From Lysinibacillus louembei (GTDB lineage Bacteria > Bacillota > Bacilli > Bacillales_A > Planococcaceae), in contig NZ_CP137624.1 of the NCBI RefSeq assembly GCF_033880585.1, forward strand, positions 2,825,501 to 2,889,500: a stretch of 64,000 nucleotides of DNA, given 5' to 3'. The position numbers were made by a program, and so were the translations under genes. This document shows, one piece after another, positions 59,811 to 64,000 of this stretch (the first letter of the stretch is position 1; every line of letters begins with the position of its first letter). Under the pieces are notes generated by a model. The model worked only from the letters and a program-made list of their open reading frames with translations, was not told where the DNA came from and ran no database searches.

Positions 59811-60836
59811 ATGATGAGAATTGCAATTTTAGGTGCTGGTTCACTCGGCACAGTAATCGGCGCATATATCGCTGAGGGTGGACAAGATGTTGAATTAATC
59901 GATGTGTATGAGGCACATGTCCAAGCTTTAAATGAAAAAGGCGCCAAAATTATTGGTACAACGGAGATGACAGCGAAAGTAAAAGCGGTCACACCAGAAA
60001 AGATGACAGGCGTGTATGACTTAGTGTTGCTATTAACAAAGCAACTATACAATGATTCTGTTTTAACAAATTTACTACCATTTTTACATGACAGCAGTGT
60101 GGTTTGCTCATTACAAAATGGAATTCCAGAAAGTAAAATAGCAGAAATTGTCGGATGTGAACGCGTGATCGCAGGTGCAGTGGAATTTGGTGCAACCTTT
60201 ACAGAGCCAGGTGTTTCAGAGCTGACAACAGAATACAATCGCTTTAAGCAATATGCCTTCCAAATTGGTGAATTAAACGGTGAAAAAACGGCACGCATTC
60301 AAAAAATTCAGGAAGTATTAGCCCTTGTTGGTGGCACACATATTTCAGAAAACCTTGTCGGCACAAAATGGTCGAAACTTTTAATTAATAACGCATTTAG
60401 CGGGCTTTCTGCAGCGATGAACACAACATATGGCGGCGTATTAGATAATGAAATTAGCGTGCGTAGTGCAGCTCATATTATTGATGAAACAATTAAAGTT
60501 GGTCATGCAAATGGTATCACATTTGCCAAAATGAATGACTTTGACATCGCCTCATTAGAAATAAGAGAGGCAGATGATATCGAACAACATATTAAAACAT
60601 TGCGTGTTATTATTGAGCCAGCCCGTCTGTTAAAAGCAAGCATGCTACAGGATTTAGAAAAAAAACGCAAAACAGAAATTGACTTTATTAACGGTGTTGT
60701 GCCGCAATTAGCGAAAGGCATTGCCACACCGTATAACGATTTAGTTGTAGCAATAGTGAAACAGGCGGAGCAAGAAGGAAGTTTACCCGACTTTGATACA
60801 ACAGTCCTTGCCTTGGCAGAGTTGAACAATAAGTAA
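59811..60836 (+). CDS. Ketopantoate reductase (ApbA/PanE) family protein
   Basis: The 341-residue protein has an N-terminal Rossmann motif GAGSLGTVIG (residues 8-17), LLLTKQ and LQNGIPE, and a C-terminal helical domain with TKWSKLLINNAFSGLSA. It reduces a 2-keto acid or ketolactone with NADPH. Its operon with acetoacetate decarboxylase suggests a role other than pantothenate synthesis. GGAGG lies 5 bases before the ATG ATG. Confidence 0.85.
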   Translation: MMRIAILGAGSLGTVIGAYIAEGGQDVELIDVYEAHVQALNEKGAKIIGTTEMTAKVKAVTPEKMTGVYDLVLLLTKQLYNDSVLTNLLPFLHDSSVVCSLQNGIPESKIAEIVGCERVIAGAVEFGATFTEPGVSELTTEYNRFKQYAFQIGELNGEKTARIQKIQEVLALVGGTHISENLVGTKWSKLLINNAFSGLSAAMNTTYGGVLDNEISVRSAAHIIDETIKVGHANGITFAKMNDFDIASLEIREADDIEQHIKTLRVIIEPARLLKASMLQDLEKKRKTEIDFINGVVPQLAKGIATPYNDLVVAIVKQAEQEGSLPDFDTTVLALAELNNK

Positions 60837-60838
60837 AT

Positions 60839-60879
60839 GAAAATCCCTTTTAAACAGCCGTTTAAAGGGGGTTTTTTTA
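60839..60879 (+). terminator. Terminator after the ketopantoate reductase-like gene
   Basis: AATCCCTTTTAAAC pairs with GTTTAAAGGGGGTT around AGCC and is followed by TTTTT. Confidence 0.85.
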
Positions 60880-60911
60880 GGCTACACTCCACGATAAGGA
60901 GGTAGATTTTT

Positions 60912-61325
60912 TTGTTATTATTAGAAACAGCTCTTGTAGGGCGTGAGGCAAAATATGGCTTATTGCGTAGCCAAATTTGTAAATATGGATTTTCGATTGG
61001 TGGTAACTGGGATTATGACAAAGGAAGCTTTGATGTTGCGTTATGGCGCGAAGGAGGAACGACGATTTATTTGAGAGCTCCTTTCGTTGTAGTAGAAGGA
61101 GAAATGGATTGCTATGACTGCATTATTCGCTTTCAAAAACCATTTATTATTAAGCATATCGTCAATATGGGGTTGGATTACGATGAAAGCTCTTGGCTTG
61201 ATGCAACGGGAGCAAGTCAATTCCAATCCCCAGTTGAAAAGGACGCAGAAATATGTCAAAAAAGCAAATGGATGAACGTAGGGCAGGATGTCATTGAAAA
61301 TCAATTAATCCCGTATATTCACTAA
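60912..61325 (+). CDS. YugN-like protein
   Basis: The 137-residue protein matches the YugN-like family: FSIGGNWDYDKGSFDVALWREGG, IYLRAPFVVVEGEMD, LRFQKPFIIKHIVNMGLD-like sequence. Function is unknown. The start is TTG with AAGGAGG 9 bases upstream. Confidence 0.75.
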   Translation: MLLLETALVGREAKYGLLRSQICKYGFSIGGNWDYDKGSFDVALWREGGTTIYLRAPFVVVEGEMDCYDCIIRFQKPFIIKHIVNMGLDYDESSWLDATGASQFQSPVEKDAEICQKSKWMNVGQDVIENQLIPYIH

Positions 61326-61342
61326 AAATAACAGGATTCGCG

Positions 61343-61378
61343 TCTCCTCCTCACGAATATATAGTCGTAAGGAGGGGA
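61343..61378 (+). promoter_or_regulatory. Hairpin sequestering the esterase ribosome binding site
   Basis: TCTCCTCCTCACGA (61343-61356) pairs with TCGTAAGGAGGGGA (61365-61378), 13 of 14 pairs, around an 8-base loop. The 3' arm contains the only ribosome binding site (GGAGGGG) of the downstream gene. Confidence 0.7.
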
Positions 61379-61382
61379 ACGT

Positions 61383-62270
61383 ATGAGAAGCTGGCAAAGT
61401 TTTTTATTTGAGCAATTTTTAATTTGGCGTAAGACGAAGCAAAAGTTTTTAGATGTGCAAGAAATGGCACTTTTTATCGAGGAAAGAAGACAAGCACCAG
61501 CCTATGAGCTTGATGAAAAATTTCAAGCAAAGCATCATATTACTAAATATCAATACGATGGTATGCTGTACTATGTTTTGAATGAGCATATTGACGCTCA
61601 GAAAAATCTTCTTTATTTTCATGGTGGCGCTTATATTAATGACCCGCTGATGTTTCATTGGCGCTATCTTGTAAAGCTAGCTGAACGCACACAGTTTCGT
61701 ATTATTGTGCCGATTTATCCAAAGTTACCACATTTTACACATGAGGCATTGTATGAAAAACTGCACTCATTTTACGCTATGCTTTGTGAAAAACATAGCG
61801 AGCCCTTTATTTTTATGGGAGATTCAGCTGGTGGAGGGATTGCACTCGCTTTCGCACAGGATGTTATGCTGCAAAATAAGCGACGGGCGGAACAAATCAT
61901 TTTATTTTCCGCATGGCTTGATGTCTCAGGGGAGGACCCGCGTTATGCAGATGTTGAAAAAATTGATCCGATGCTTGGCTTAGCTGGTGCGCAAATGCTT
62001 GGAAAGCTGTGGGCAAACTCTCAAGATATTTCACACCATTTAGTTAGTCCACTGCACGGCCCTTTGCAGGATATTGGACGCATTACATTGTTTGTTGGTA
62101 CAGGAGAAATGCTGATTGTTGATGCTCATATGCTACTTGAAAAAGCAAAGAAGGAAGACGTTGATCTACTCTATTTTGAATATCCAAAAATGAATCACGT
62201 ATTTCCTGTTTTTCCAATTCCAGAGGCTAAAAAAGTATGGAAGCAGCTACTGCCAATTTTACTTAGATAA
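61383..62270 (+). CDS. Alpha/beta hydrolase (HSL-type carboxylesterase family)
   Basis: The 295-residue protein has the HGGAY oxyanion-hole motif, the nucleophile elbow GDSAGGG, and a likely catalytic His near the end (KMNHVFPVF). It is an esterase/lipase type enzyme without signal peptide, so it acts in the cytosol. Its substrate is unknown. The ribosome binding site is enclosed by the preceding hairpin. Confidence 0.82.
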   Translation: MRSWQSFLFEQFLIWRKTKQKFLDVQEMALFIEERRQAPAYELDEKFQAKHHITKYQYDGMLYYVLNEHIDAQKNLLYFHGGAYINDPLMFHWRYLVKLAERTQFRIIVPIYPKLPHFTHEALYEKLHSFYAMLCEKHSEPFIFMGDSAGGGIALAFAQDVMLQNKRRAEQIILFSAWLDVSGEDPRYADVEKIDPMLGLAGAQMLGKLWANSQDISHHLVSPLHGPLQDIGRITLFVGTGEMLIVDAHMLLEKAKKEDVDLLYFEYPKMNHVFPVFPIPEAKKVWKQLLPILLR

Positions 62271-62334
62271 TTATTGTTTAGTTTTTGTATAGGCTTATTA
62301 TGTTATTCTACAAAAGAACGCGCATAAAGTTTCA

Positions 62335-62372
62335 TAAAAAACGAGTCTTCATTCCTGGAGGCTCGTTTTTTG
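62335..62372. terminator. Terminator after the esterase gene
   Basis: AAAAACGAGTCT pairs with AGGCTCGTTTTT and is followed by T residues. Confidence 0.85.
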
Positions 62373-62436
62373 TGTTAGATAACATATAACAACATGCTTG
62401 ATGAACATAAAATACAAAGAAAGTAGGTGATAATAG

Positions 62437-63096
62437 ATGAGTGTAGAAGCGACTATTCGAGATATAGCGGAGCTTTTACCGACAGCACAAACAGCTTGTA
62501 AATTACTATTTCAAGAATGTTATAAGGCAGGAATTCGCAATGTTTTTATTACCGAGACGTACCGCAGTCAAGAGCGCCAAAATTACTTGTATGCACAGGG
62601 ACGTACAAGATCGGGGGCAATTGTCACATGGACGCTTAGTAGCAAGCACAAATCACGTTTAGCATGGGACATCGCTGTTGGACCACCAAACACCTTGTAT
62701 GATGCTTCCATATTAAATAAAGTCGGGGCAATTGCCCGCAAATTAAATATTACATGGGGCGGTGATTGGGCAGGCAGCATTGATAGAGTACATTTTGAAA
62801 TCAATTCAACATGGAAGATGCCGTCTGGCTATAAACTAGAAGGGAATATCGTTGTTCCAACAAGCAGTACTGTACCTGTTCAATTTGATCCAAAGGAGGA
62901 AGTGCCAATGTCACAAATATGGAATCCAGGAAGTCCTGCTATGCAAACAGCAGCAGAAGCCTTTATAGCGCAAGCCGTACAAGAGGGCATCATTCAAGCA
63001 TCACATTTGACAGATTTGCAAAATAAGCAAATGACTACTGACCGTTTGTTAGGCTTGTACATTACGATTGATCAAAGACGAAATGTTACGAAATAA
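62437..63096 (+). CDS. M15 family peptidase (endolysin or VanY-like)
   Basis: The 219-residue protein has the zinc-peptidase signature SKHKSRLAWDIAVG (His71, Asp78) and WGGDWAGSIDRVHFEI (His119). It resembles L-alanyl-D-glutamate peptidase or D,D-carboxypeptidase domains of phage endolysins. The C-terminal ~75 residues have no recognised cell-wall binding repeat. There is no signal peptide, which fits a phage-derived lysin. No other phage genes are seen. Confidence 0.78.
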   Translation: MSVEATIRDIAELLPTAQTACKLLFQECYKAGIRNVFITETYRSQERQNYLYAQGRTRSGAIVTWTLSSKHKSRLAWDIAVGPPNTLYDASILNKVGAIARKLNITWGGDWAGSIDRVHFEINSTWKMPSGYKLEGNIVVPTSSTVPVQFDPKEEVPMSQIWNPGSPAMQTAAEAFIAQAVQEGIIQASHLTDLQNKQMTTDRLLGLYITIDQRRNVTK

Positions 63097-63213
63097 AGTG
63101 ACTCTGAAGCCTGCCATAAAAGCGGGCTTTAAAGCATATATCCCCTTTTTTCTACATAATTAGTAGTAGTATGTCTCCAAATTATGTATAGTAATAGATA
63201 AGGAGGAGAATTT

Positions 63214-63732
63214 ATGAAAAAACTACTACCATTTTTATTCGCATTATCTCTTATTTTAGTAGCCTGTAATCAAAATGTTGAAATCAAGCTACCTGCATCT
63301 TTCCTAGAAGGTCAAGATGTAGATGAGGTAATTGCACAAGCAAAAGAAGAAGGCATTGGCGAAATCAAGCAAAACGATGATGGTTCTTTGACATATACAA
63401 TGTCGAAGGAAAAGCATAAAGAAATGATGAAGGAATTGGAGGACGGAATACTGGAATCAGTTGAAGAAATTAAAAGCACTGATAATTTCCCGTCCATCAA
63501 AGATGTCGCTTATAATAAAGATTATACTGAGTTTACATTAACAGTTGAAAAAGAGAGCTTTGAAGGTAGCTTTGATTCAATTGCTTCATTTGGGCTAGCT
63601 ATCGCTGGCATGTATTATCAAGTGTTTAATGGCGTTGATGCAGACGCATACAAAGTAACGATTCATTATAAAGATGAGGCGAACGGCGAAATTTTCGATA
63701 CAACCGTTTACCCAGATGATTTGAATAATTAA
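63214..63732 (+). CDS. Putative lipoprotein, unknown function
   Basis: The 172-residue protein has a lipoprotein signal ending LILVAC (lipid-modified Cys near residue 18). The mature part has alternating acidic/basic helices and a beta-rich C-terminal half (GSLTYTMSKEKHKEMMKELED, YTEFTLTVEKESFEG). No domain was recognised. AAGGAGGAG lies before the ATG. Confidence 0.7.
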   Translation: MKKLLPFLFALSLILVACNQNVEIKLPASFLEGQDVDEVIAQAKEEGIGEIKQNDDGSLTYTMSKEKHKEMMKELEDGILESVEEIKSTDNFPSIKDVAYNKDYTEFTLTVEKESFEGSFDSIASFGLAIAGMYYQVFNGVDADAYKVTIHYKDEANGEIFDTTVYPDDLNN

Positions 63733-63782
63733 CAAGCAGGTAGCTGTAGGAAATGTATATTTTTATAGCTACCTGCTTTTTT
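63733..63782 (+). terminator. Terminator after the lipoprotein gene
   Basis: AGCAGGTAGCT pairs with ATAGCTACCTGCT and is followed by TTTTTT. Confidence 0.85.
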
Positions 63783-63821
63783 ATGAACATAAATGCTAAA
63801 GCAACGCACAAAATAGAAAAC

Positions 63822-63887
63822 CTACTTTCTTTTTCTTTTCATAGAAGCAGAAATTGCTGCAAAAAGTGCATCATCTCCTAATTTGTC
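63822..63887 (-). pseudogene. Possible C-terminal gene remnant
   Basis: On the minus strand a short frame reads DKLGDDALFAAISASMKRKR and ends at a TAG, but an upstream TAA (63897-63899) stops it and no start codon exists. The basic end looks like the tail of a real protein. It may be a decayed gene fragment. Confidence 0.3.
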
Positions 63888-64000
63888 TAATAGTAGTTAC
63901 GTTTAGAATAGTAAGAAGTTCCGAAATGATATTGTCCAGTTGAAAAGGTTTTATAATATGCCTTTACAGGAATATTCTTGTTGAGGTATATTTATGATAA
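63888..64000. other. Right edge of the window
   Basis: These bases contain a TATAAT at 63952-63957 without a good -35 element. No gene was recognised before the window ends. Confidence 0.4.

Follow-up and report, generated by a model that had tools for sequence, protein, structure and literature searches.

The question raised by this locus is what function could be served by a hairpin that closes the ribosome binding site of a gene lying directly behind another gene on the same strand. The window analysed here is the whole 64,000-nucleotide stretch of DNA from Lysinibacillus louembei, and the gene in question (61383–62270, + strand) codes for an esterase, which based on its domain match (PF07859, E 5e-30) and motifs (HGG at residue 80, GDSAGG at residue 146 and NHVF at residue 271) is a hormone-sensitive-lipase-type alpha/beta hydrolase. 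Its best match among solved structures is 3d7r (E 9e-35), and its matches to the NCBIfam HSL models are far below the cut-offs of those models. The preceding gene is yugN-like (PF08868; 60912–61325, + strand, stop codon at 61323–61325) and is presumed to be the source of read-through transcription into the esterase gene. The distance from the yugN stop codon to the esterase start is 57 nt, of which the first 14 nt precede the stem of the hairpin.

The hairpin is genuine and unusually strong. In the RNAfold prediction the stem extends from 61340 to 61382, its 16 pairs being interrupted by one bulge and one mismatch. Its outer part (12 pairs, + strand) is formed by 61340–61351 with 61370–61377 and 61379–61382, the A at 61378 being bulged, and this is followed by a 1x1 mismatch (61352/61369), an inner helix of 4 pairs (61353–61356 with 61365–61368) and an apical loop (61357–61364). 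The SD sequence AGGAGGGG (61370–61377) makes up the inner part of the outer-stem 3' arm, with all of its bases paired, and the outer part of this arm, ACGT (61379–61382), adjoins the ATG at 61383. The initial annotation, which described a stem at 61343–61378 with 13 of 14 positions paired, was right that a stem is present and that the ribosome binding site lies fully within its 3' arm, but its limits and pair count fall slightly short of those given above. The region 61320–61420 has an MFE of -29.9 (z -3.97), and none of 200 dinucleotide shuffles folds as well. The cost of opening the esterase SD, 15.6 kcal/mol, is the highest among 294 SD-bearing gene starts, for which the mean is 3.15 and the sd 2.45, and by MFE its leader ranks fourth. 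These 294 starts were taken from the window and from 20 stretches of 20 kb each of the same genome (L110–L129, 400 kb), and they were called, start codons included, using a simple ORF/SD heuristic that required an SD of 5 nt or more. Further, 500 dinucleotide shuffles of the esterase leader upstream of the SD gave costs up to 13.0, and 3516 similar shuffles applied to the other 293 leaders gave costs up to 14.0, so that 15.6 kcal/mol was reached in neither set.

If this hairpin is a switchable RNA element, viz. a thermometer or a stem that is opened by a protein or an antisense RNA, as was proposed in the initial annotation, then translation should be low unless the stem opens. The first part of this expectation holds in silico for an mRNA containing both arms, and a switch would also accord with the complete sequestration of the SD and with a weak alternative pairing, seen by eye, of ATTCG (61336–61340; ATTTG in L003) with CGAAT (61354–61358). 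However, the part of the proposal concerning temperature does not hold, as in folds at seven temperatures between 10 and 60 C the SD core is at most 1.8% unpaired in all three species with the gene, and an RNA thermometer was rejected on this ground. A riboswitch was likewise rejected: an Rfam search of 60000–64000 gave nothing at the leader up to E 1, and because the stem begins 14 nt after the yugN stop codon, an aptamer or sensor domain could hardly be accommodated. In view of these observations, it is very unlikely that the hairpin is an element of the switchable kind. Two other functions were also considered and rejected. For an intrinsic terminator of yugN, the stem is not followed by a T-run (the 3' arm is followed by ATGAGAAGC), and a terminator cannot fit upstream of the stem (61326–61339), since the gap to yugN is 14 nt. 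A scan for terminators and promoters gave nothing at the site, but it carries little weight, as it also missed two terminator-like stems that are seen by eye at about 60844–60878 and 62340–62373. For a leader peptide, indels shift the reading frames between species, as judged by eye.

A different indication of function comes from comparison of the leaders from the genus Metasolibacillus, which covered five genomes and three distinct leader sequences. Two blocks, AACAGGATT and TCACGAATATA (61351–61361), are invariant in the three species; the sequence just 5' varies, as do 7 of the 16 positions of the spacer between the boxes that they contain. These boxes are AGGATT (61333–61338, + strand), a putative sigma-H -35 element based on alignment and spacing, and GAAT (61355–61358, + strand), a putative sigma-H -10 element based on alignment; both are invariant, and in all three species with the esterase they are 16 nt apart. 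Since AACAGGATT sits outside the stem, the stem cannot account for its conservation. In the fold, the 5' arm of the outer stem (61340–61351, + strand), which is the anti-SD arm, lies inside the spacer of this putative promoter. We infer that the conserved blocks constitute a working promoter, putatively of sigma-H type.

The sigma-H consensus of B. subtilis is RnAGGAWWW-N11/12-RnnGAAT, and spoVG and spoIIA are sigma-H genes in this species. In the genome containing the window, AGGAWW-N16-GAATWW has 31 matches, which include the spoVG promoter, versus 11 for a reversed control. The sequence AGGAATT-N16-GAATAT is found upstream of spoVG in 4 of the 5 genus genomes; in a MAG of the window's species (G061), the spoVG promoter is without the -35 AGGA that is present in the other four (L058, about 1430–1460). 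Upstream of spoIIAA, the pattern [AG]GGAWW, 14–17 nt, GAAT is present in 24 of 31 leaders from the family (the set comprises 31 loci; 10 further matches had no locus). Of these 24 spoIIA sites and 4 spoVG sites taken together, 18 have a spacing of 16, 8 of 15 and 2 of 14. Both spoVG and spoIIA are also in the sigma-H listing for C. difficile in PMC7438776, and when the boxes were placed by us in 35 of the sites listed there, the spacing was 15 or 16 in 34 of them.

The match of the window site to sigma-H promoters is itself weak to moderate as judged by sequence scoring. With a PWM built from the spoIIA and spoVG sites, the window site scores 10.1, L002 11.0 and L003 11.8, and all 28 training sites are higher (15.9–24.8); a score as high is found at 127 sites in the 928 kb of strand sequence and at 6 of the 294 gene starts, this one included. 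A second PWM was based on 35 of the 40 rows published for C. difficile (PMC7438776), five low-scoring rows (1.57–2.73) being left out, and the placement of the -10 box for it favoured a purine in its first position and a spacing close to 15.5. With this matrix the scores are 10.6 for the window, 10.6 for L002 and 11.9 for L003, the window site lies above only one of the 35 listed sites, and 307 sites and 10 of the 294 gene starts (again with itself included) are as good. The window site has C at the first position of RnnGAAT, which is usually a purine, and with the boxes placed in this way a pyrimidine is seen there in none of the 35 listed sites. The candidacy of sigma-H is raised because both boxes are invariant across species at a fixed spacing. 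The mechanism considered below is unchanged if the promoter belongs to another sigma factor.

If the two boxes form a promoter, then the position of its transcription start in relation to the two arms becomes important. In Table 3 of PMC7438776, 32 of the 35 promoter fragments used extend 8–11 nt beyond the GAAT-like box, and on the assumption that these fragments stop at the mapped start, the distance to GAAT places the expected start of the internal promoter within 61365–61369 (+ strand). A start 7–10 nt past GAAT corresponds to 61365–61368, which is 3' of the 5' arm, and the leader predicted for this RNA is only 14–18 nt long, with the SD close to its 5' end. RNA from such a start would lack the 5' arm, so that the hairpin is expected in read-through RNA alone. 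The effect of the start site on the SD was examined by folding RNAs with 12 starts located 1–12 nt past GAAT and with 3 upstream starts (400, 120 and 62 nt before the ATG). For the upstream starts in the window, the SD core is 0.000 unpaired and costs 13.1–15.5 kcal/mol to open, whereas for all 12 starts past GAAT it is 0.82–0.93 unpaired and the cost is 0.15–0.54 kcal/mol. In L002 the unpaired fraction is 0.002 in the long versus 0.87–0.93 in the short RNA. In L003 it is 0.001 for upstream starts, 24–39% for starts up to GAAT+6, 62–96% from GAAT+7 on and 0.71–0.96 from GAAT+8 on.

Based on these results, the explanation that we favour, as a reasonably probable one, is that the leader is a start-site-dependent translational insulator. 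According to this explanation, a sigma-H-type promoter would span the 5' half of the hairpin, with its -35 element just upstream of the stem, its -10 element reaching the loop and its spacer holding the anti-SD arm. Transcription would start at about 61365–61369, beyond the 5' arm, and the RNA made from the gene's own promoter, having an open SD, would be translated. The RNA expected from read-through of yugN would hold both arms, would fold and would probably be silent in translation. The esterase would in this way be made only while its own promoter, which is probably of the transition-phase or sporulation type, is active, although the gene is located directly behind another gene. The insulator is supported by the strength of the stem, the start-dependent opening of the SD, the invariant blocks and the sigma-H-like spacing, and further by the pyrimidine-rich spacer, the joint absence of gene and leader in one genome and the precedent of B. 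subtilis sigG, which are described below. Against it stand the low sigma-H scores, the shortness of the predicted leader and the partial opening for the early starts in L003, together with points also described below: the lack of significant covariation, the large share of spacer composition in the pairing of L002 and L003, the better pairing of the window spacer in these two contexts, and the absence of both features from the leaders of more distant orthologues. It is nevertheless probably a better explanation than regulation by opening of the stem, which is not needed.

A simpler possibility is that transcription comes solely from further upstream and that the hairpin just keeps expression of the esterase low at all times. 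The retention of a strong stem in three species and the low sigma-H score of the window site among known sites are consistent with such constitutive damping, and there is a precedent for it. In S. aureus sigH, a 13-base inverted repeat in the 5'-UTR likely sequesters the ribosome binding site and represses translation, and deletion of half of this repeat results in SigH activity in all cells (PMC3486894). The esterase leader resembles this case in having a repeat that closes the ribosome binding site; however, the S. aureus repeat is described in the relevant part of PMC3486894 without a promoter inside it, and the repression reported there is of a plasmid-made mRNA. Damping leaves unexplained both the invariant AACAGGATT outside the stem and its 16-nt spacing to GAAT, and the opening cost of 13–15 kcal/mol in the window would permit almost no expression. 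It is thus considered unlikely that the hairpin serves only to keep expression low.

It can also be asked whether the pairing itself has been selected, or whether the promoter is real and the hairpin is incidental to it, a pyrimidine-rich spacer merely happening to face a purine-rich SD. The covariation suggested as a check in the initial annotation is not significant: the three sequences contain 2 pairs with double changes, a number that is matched by 107 of 500 shuffles and again obtained when the partner is slid by +3. Over the same three sequences, 85.4% of the cells are paired in register, and no slid version exceeds 60.9%. With random spacers that have the composition of the genome, 0, 5 and 3 of 1000 trials give an opening cost as high as that observed (window, L003 and L002, respectively), and with shuffles of the letters within each spacer the numbers are 2, 179 and 197 of 1000. 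As the spacers of L003 and L002 shuffled in their own letters often suffice, most of the closure in these two species is due to pyrimidine content, which would fit an incidental hairpin, whereas the 2 of 1000 for the window speaks against it. No co-adaptation between the spacer and the SD of the same species was found, the window spacer out-pairing the own spacers of L002 and L003. The pyrimidine content of the spacer is 0.81–0.88 in the three species, whereas the 24 spoIIA spacers average 0.53, and a single one of these has a content of 0.8 or more, equal to the 0.81 of the window. Such spacers are atypical of spoIIA promoters, and this, as well as an esterase opening cost lying above every leader shuffle, is not expected of an incidental hairpin. 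On the other side, in 7 of the 24 spoIIA leaders with the motif (4 of them in the genus) the spacer pairs with at least 3 of the 5 SD-core bases, the opening costs being ordinary (0.5–7.6 over the 24). An incidental hairpin next to a real promoter is distinctly improbable in our judgement, and selection on the pairing itself is partly supported by these sequence comparisons.

The distribution of the leader follows that of the gene. The order yugN–esterase is found in 4 of the 5 genus genomes, and the esterase is 99% identical in protein sequence in a MAG of Metasolibacillus sp., 87% in Bacillus ndiopicus FF3 and 85% in M. meyeri; both related species having the gene retain the leader in a modified form. 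In the exception, G003, yugN is followed by about 0.5 kb without the esterase and then by a vanY-like gene and the start of a lipoprotein gene, and here the esterase and its leader are absent together. Based on pairwise identities, this state may reflect either loss of the esterase in G003 or its gain in the other genomes. The hairpin and the motif are both absent from the leaders of 14 orthologues from genus g14 (58–63% identity, opening cost 0.2–4.5; 14 of 15 loci, the partial match L168 being left out). They are both absent also from 24 further leaders (L004–L009 and L027–L044), a set without L010 and L012–L022, in which two leaders are shared with the g14 set and that of L037 is only 27 nt long; for L011 no start was found. 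Among the leaders examined, the layout is, on this comparison, particular to Metasolibacillus.

In its working, the esterase leader would be like two systems that are known from earlier studies. The B. subtilis sigG gene sits behind spoIIGA-sigE, another transcription unit, and a large hairpin of 20 or more pairs has been proposed to block translation of the read-through RNA from PspoIIG; this hairpin cannot form in the RNA from the sporulation promoter PsigG (PMC5942855, citing Masuda 1988 for the proposal). The two cases share the location of the gene behind another unit and a hairpin confined, for the esterase by prediction, to the read-through RNA, and they are from the same bacterial class. 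However, as sigG is described in PMC5942855, its own promoter is of the sigma-F/sigma-G type, whereas that of the esterase is putatively sigma-H-like; the target of the hairpin is a sigma factor rather than an esterase; and its own mRNA has a second, small hairpin, unlike the esterase leader. In phage T4, the longer early RNAs of e and I-TevI fold over the ribosome binding site, and the late promoters are placed such that the 5' strand of the stem is missing from the late RNA, which is translated, with the long RNA of e being translated about 100-fold less; soc, segB and others are also named for this layout (PMC3014915, PMC2988022). The T4 genes share with the arrangement predicted for the esterase a promoter inside the hairpin region and a short RNA without the 5' strand. 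In T4, however, these are phage late promoters and the effect was shown by experiment, whereas the esterase is a cellular gene and its case is a prediction. Literature searches, the last of which was too broad to speak for Metasolibacillus, gave no paper on the esterase leader among those listed.

If the proposed insulator is correct, then the answer to unwanted read-through that is known from sigG and T4 also serves an ordinary metabolic gene, and hairpins at ribosome binding sites should be checked for promoters in the 5' arm before they are named as thermometers or riboswitches. It would also predict a time of expression, viz. transition phase or early sporulation, for this uncharacterised esterase.

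It may further be considered whether promoter spacers encoding an anti-SD are a recurrent device here, by which genes become deaf to read-through transcription; this broader proposal is a tentative one and rather unlikely to hold. Strong closure of the SD is over-represented among the 294 starts, with 13 versus 5.2 expected at costs of at least 8, and 7 versus 1.7 at costs of at least 10. The second strongest SD-closing hairpin among them is located in L125 at about 6281 (- strand; 12.9 kcal/mol). In the spoIIAA leaders of the genus (L060–L064), the sequence CTCGTC/TTCGTC in the sigma-H spacer can pair with GACGAGGAGG at the SD, and the MFE fold pairs 3–4 of the 5 SD-core bases with the spacer in 4 of the 5 leaders, at costs of 2.9–5.2 over all five. 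However, spoIIA was rejected as an equally strong lock because of the ordinary opening costs noted above.

Some similar arrangements were observed at other genes. In the yugN leader (60882–60902 in the window), all five genus genomes have CTCC 7 nt before GGAGG (CTACACTCC..AAGGAGG), and TACACT in this leader could be a -10 box, which would make it a weaker version of the promoter-in-arm layout (opening cost 4.4–9.3). The leader of the lipoprotein gene (63144–63216) contains TCTCC..TATAGT..GGAGGAGA and has an opening cost of 8.6 (rank 12 of 294); its arm is poorly kept, being CCTCC in M. meyeri versus TCTTT in G003, and this gene (at 63214) was rejected as a further case, its hairpin not being kept in G003. 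Lastly, a sigG-like gene (L169–L173) has in all five genus genomes a small hairpin directly 5' of the SD, TGAACGA/TCGTTCG (TTGTTCG in L171), with an opening cost of 2.7–5.7, and this resembles the small hairpin at the sigG ribosome binding site known from Bacilli as described in PMC5942855.
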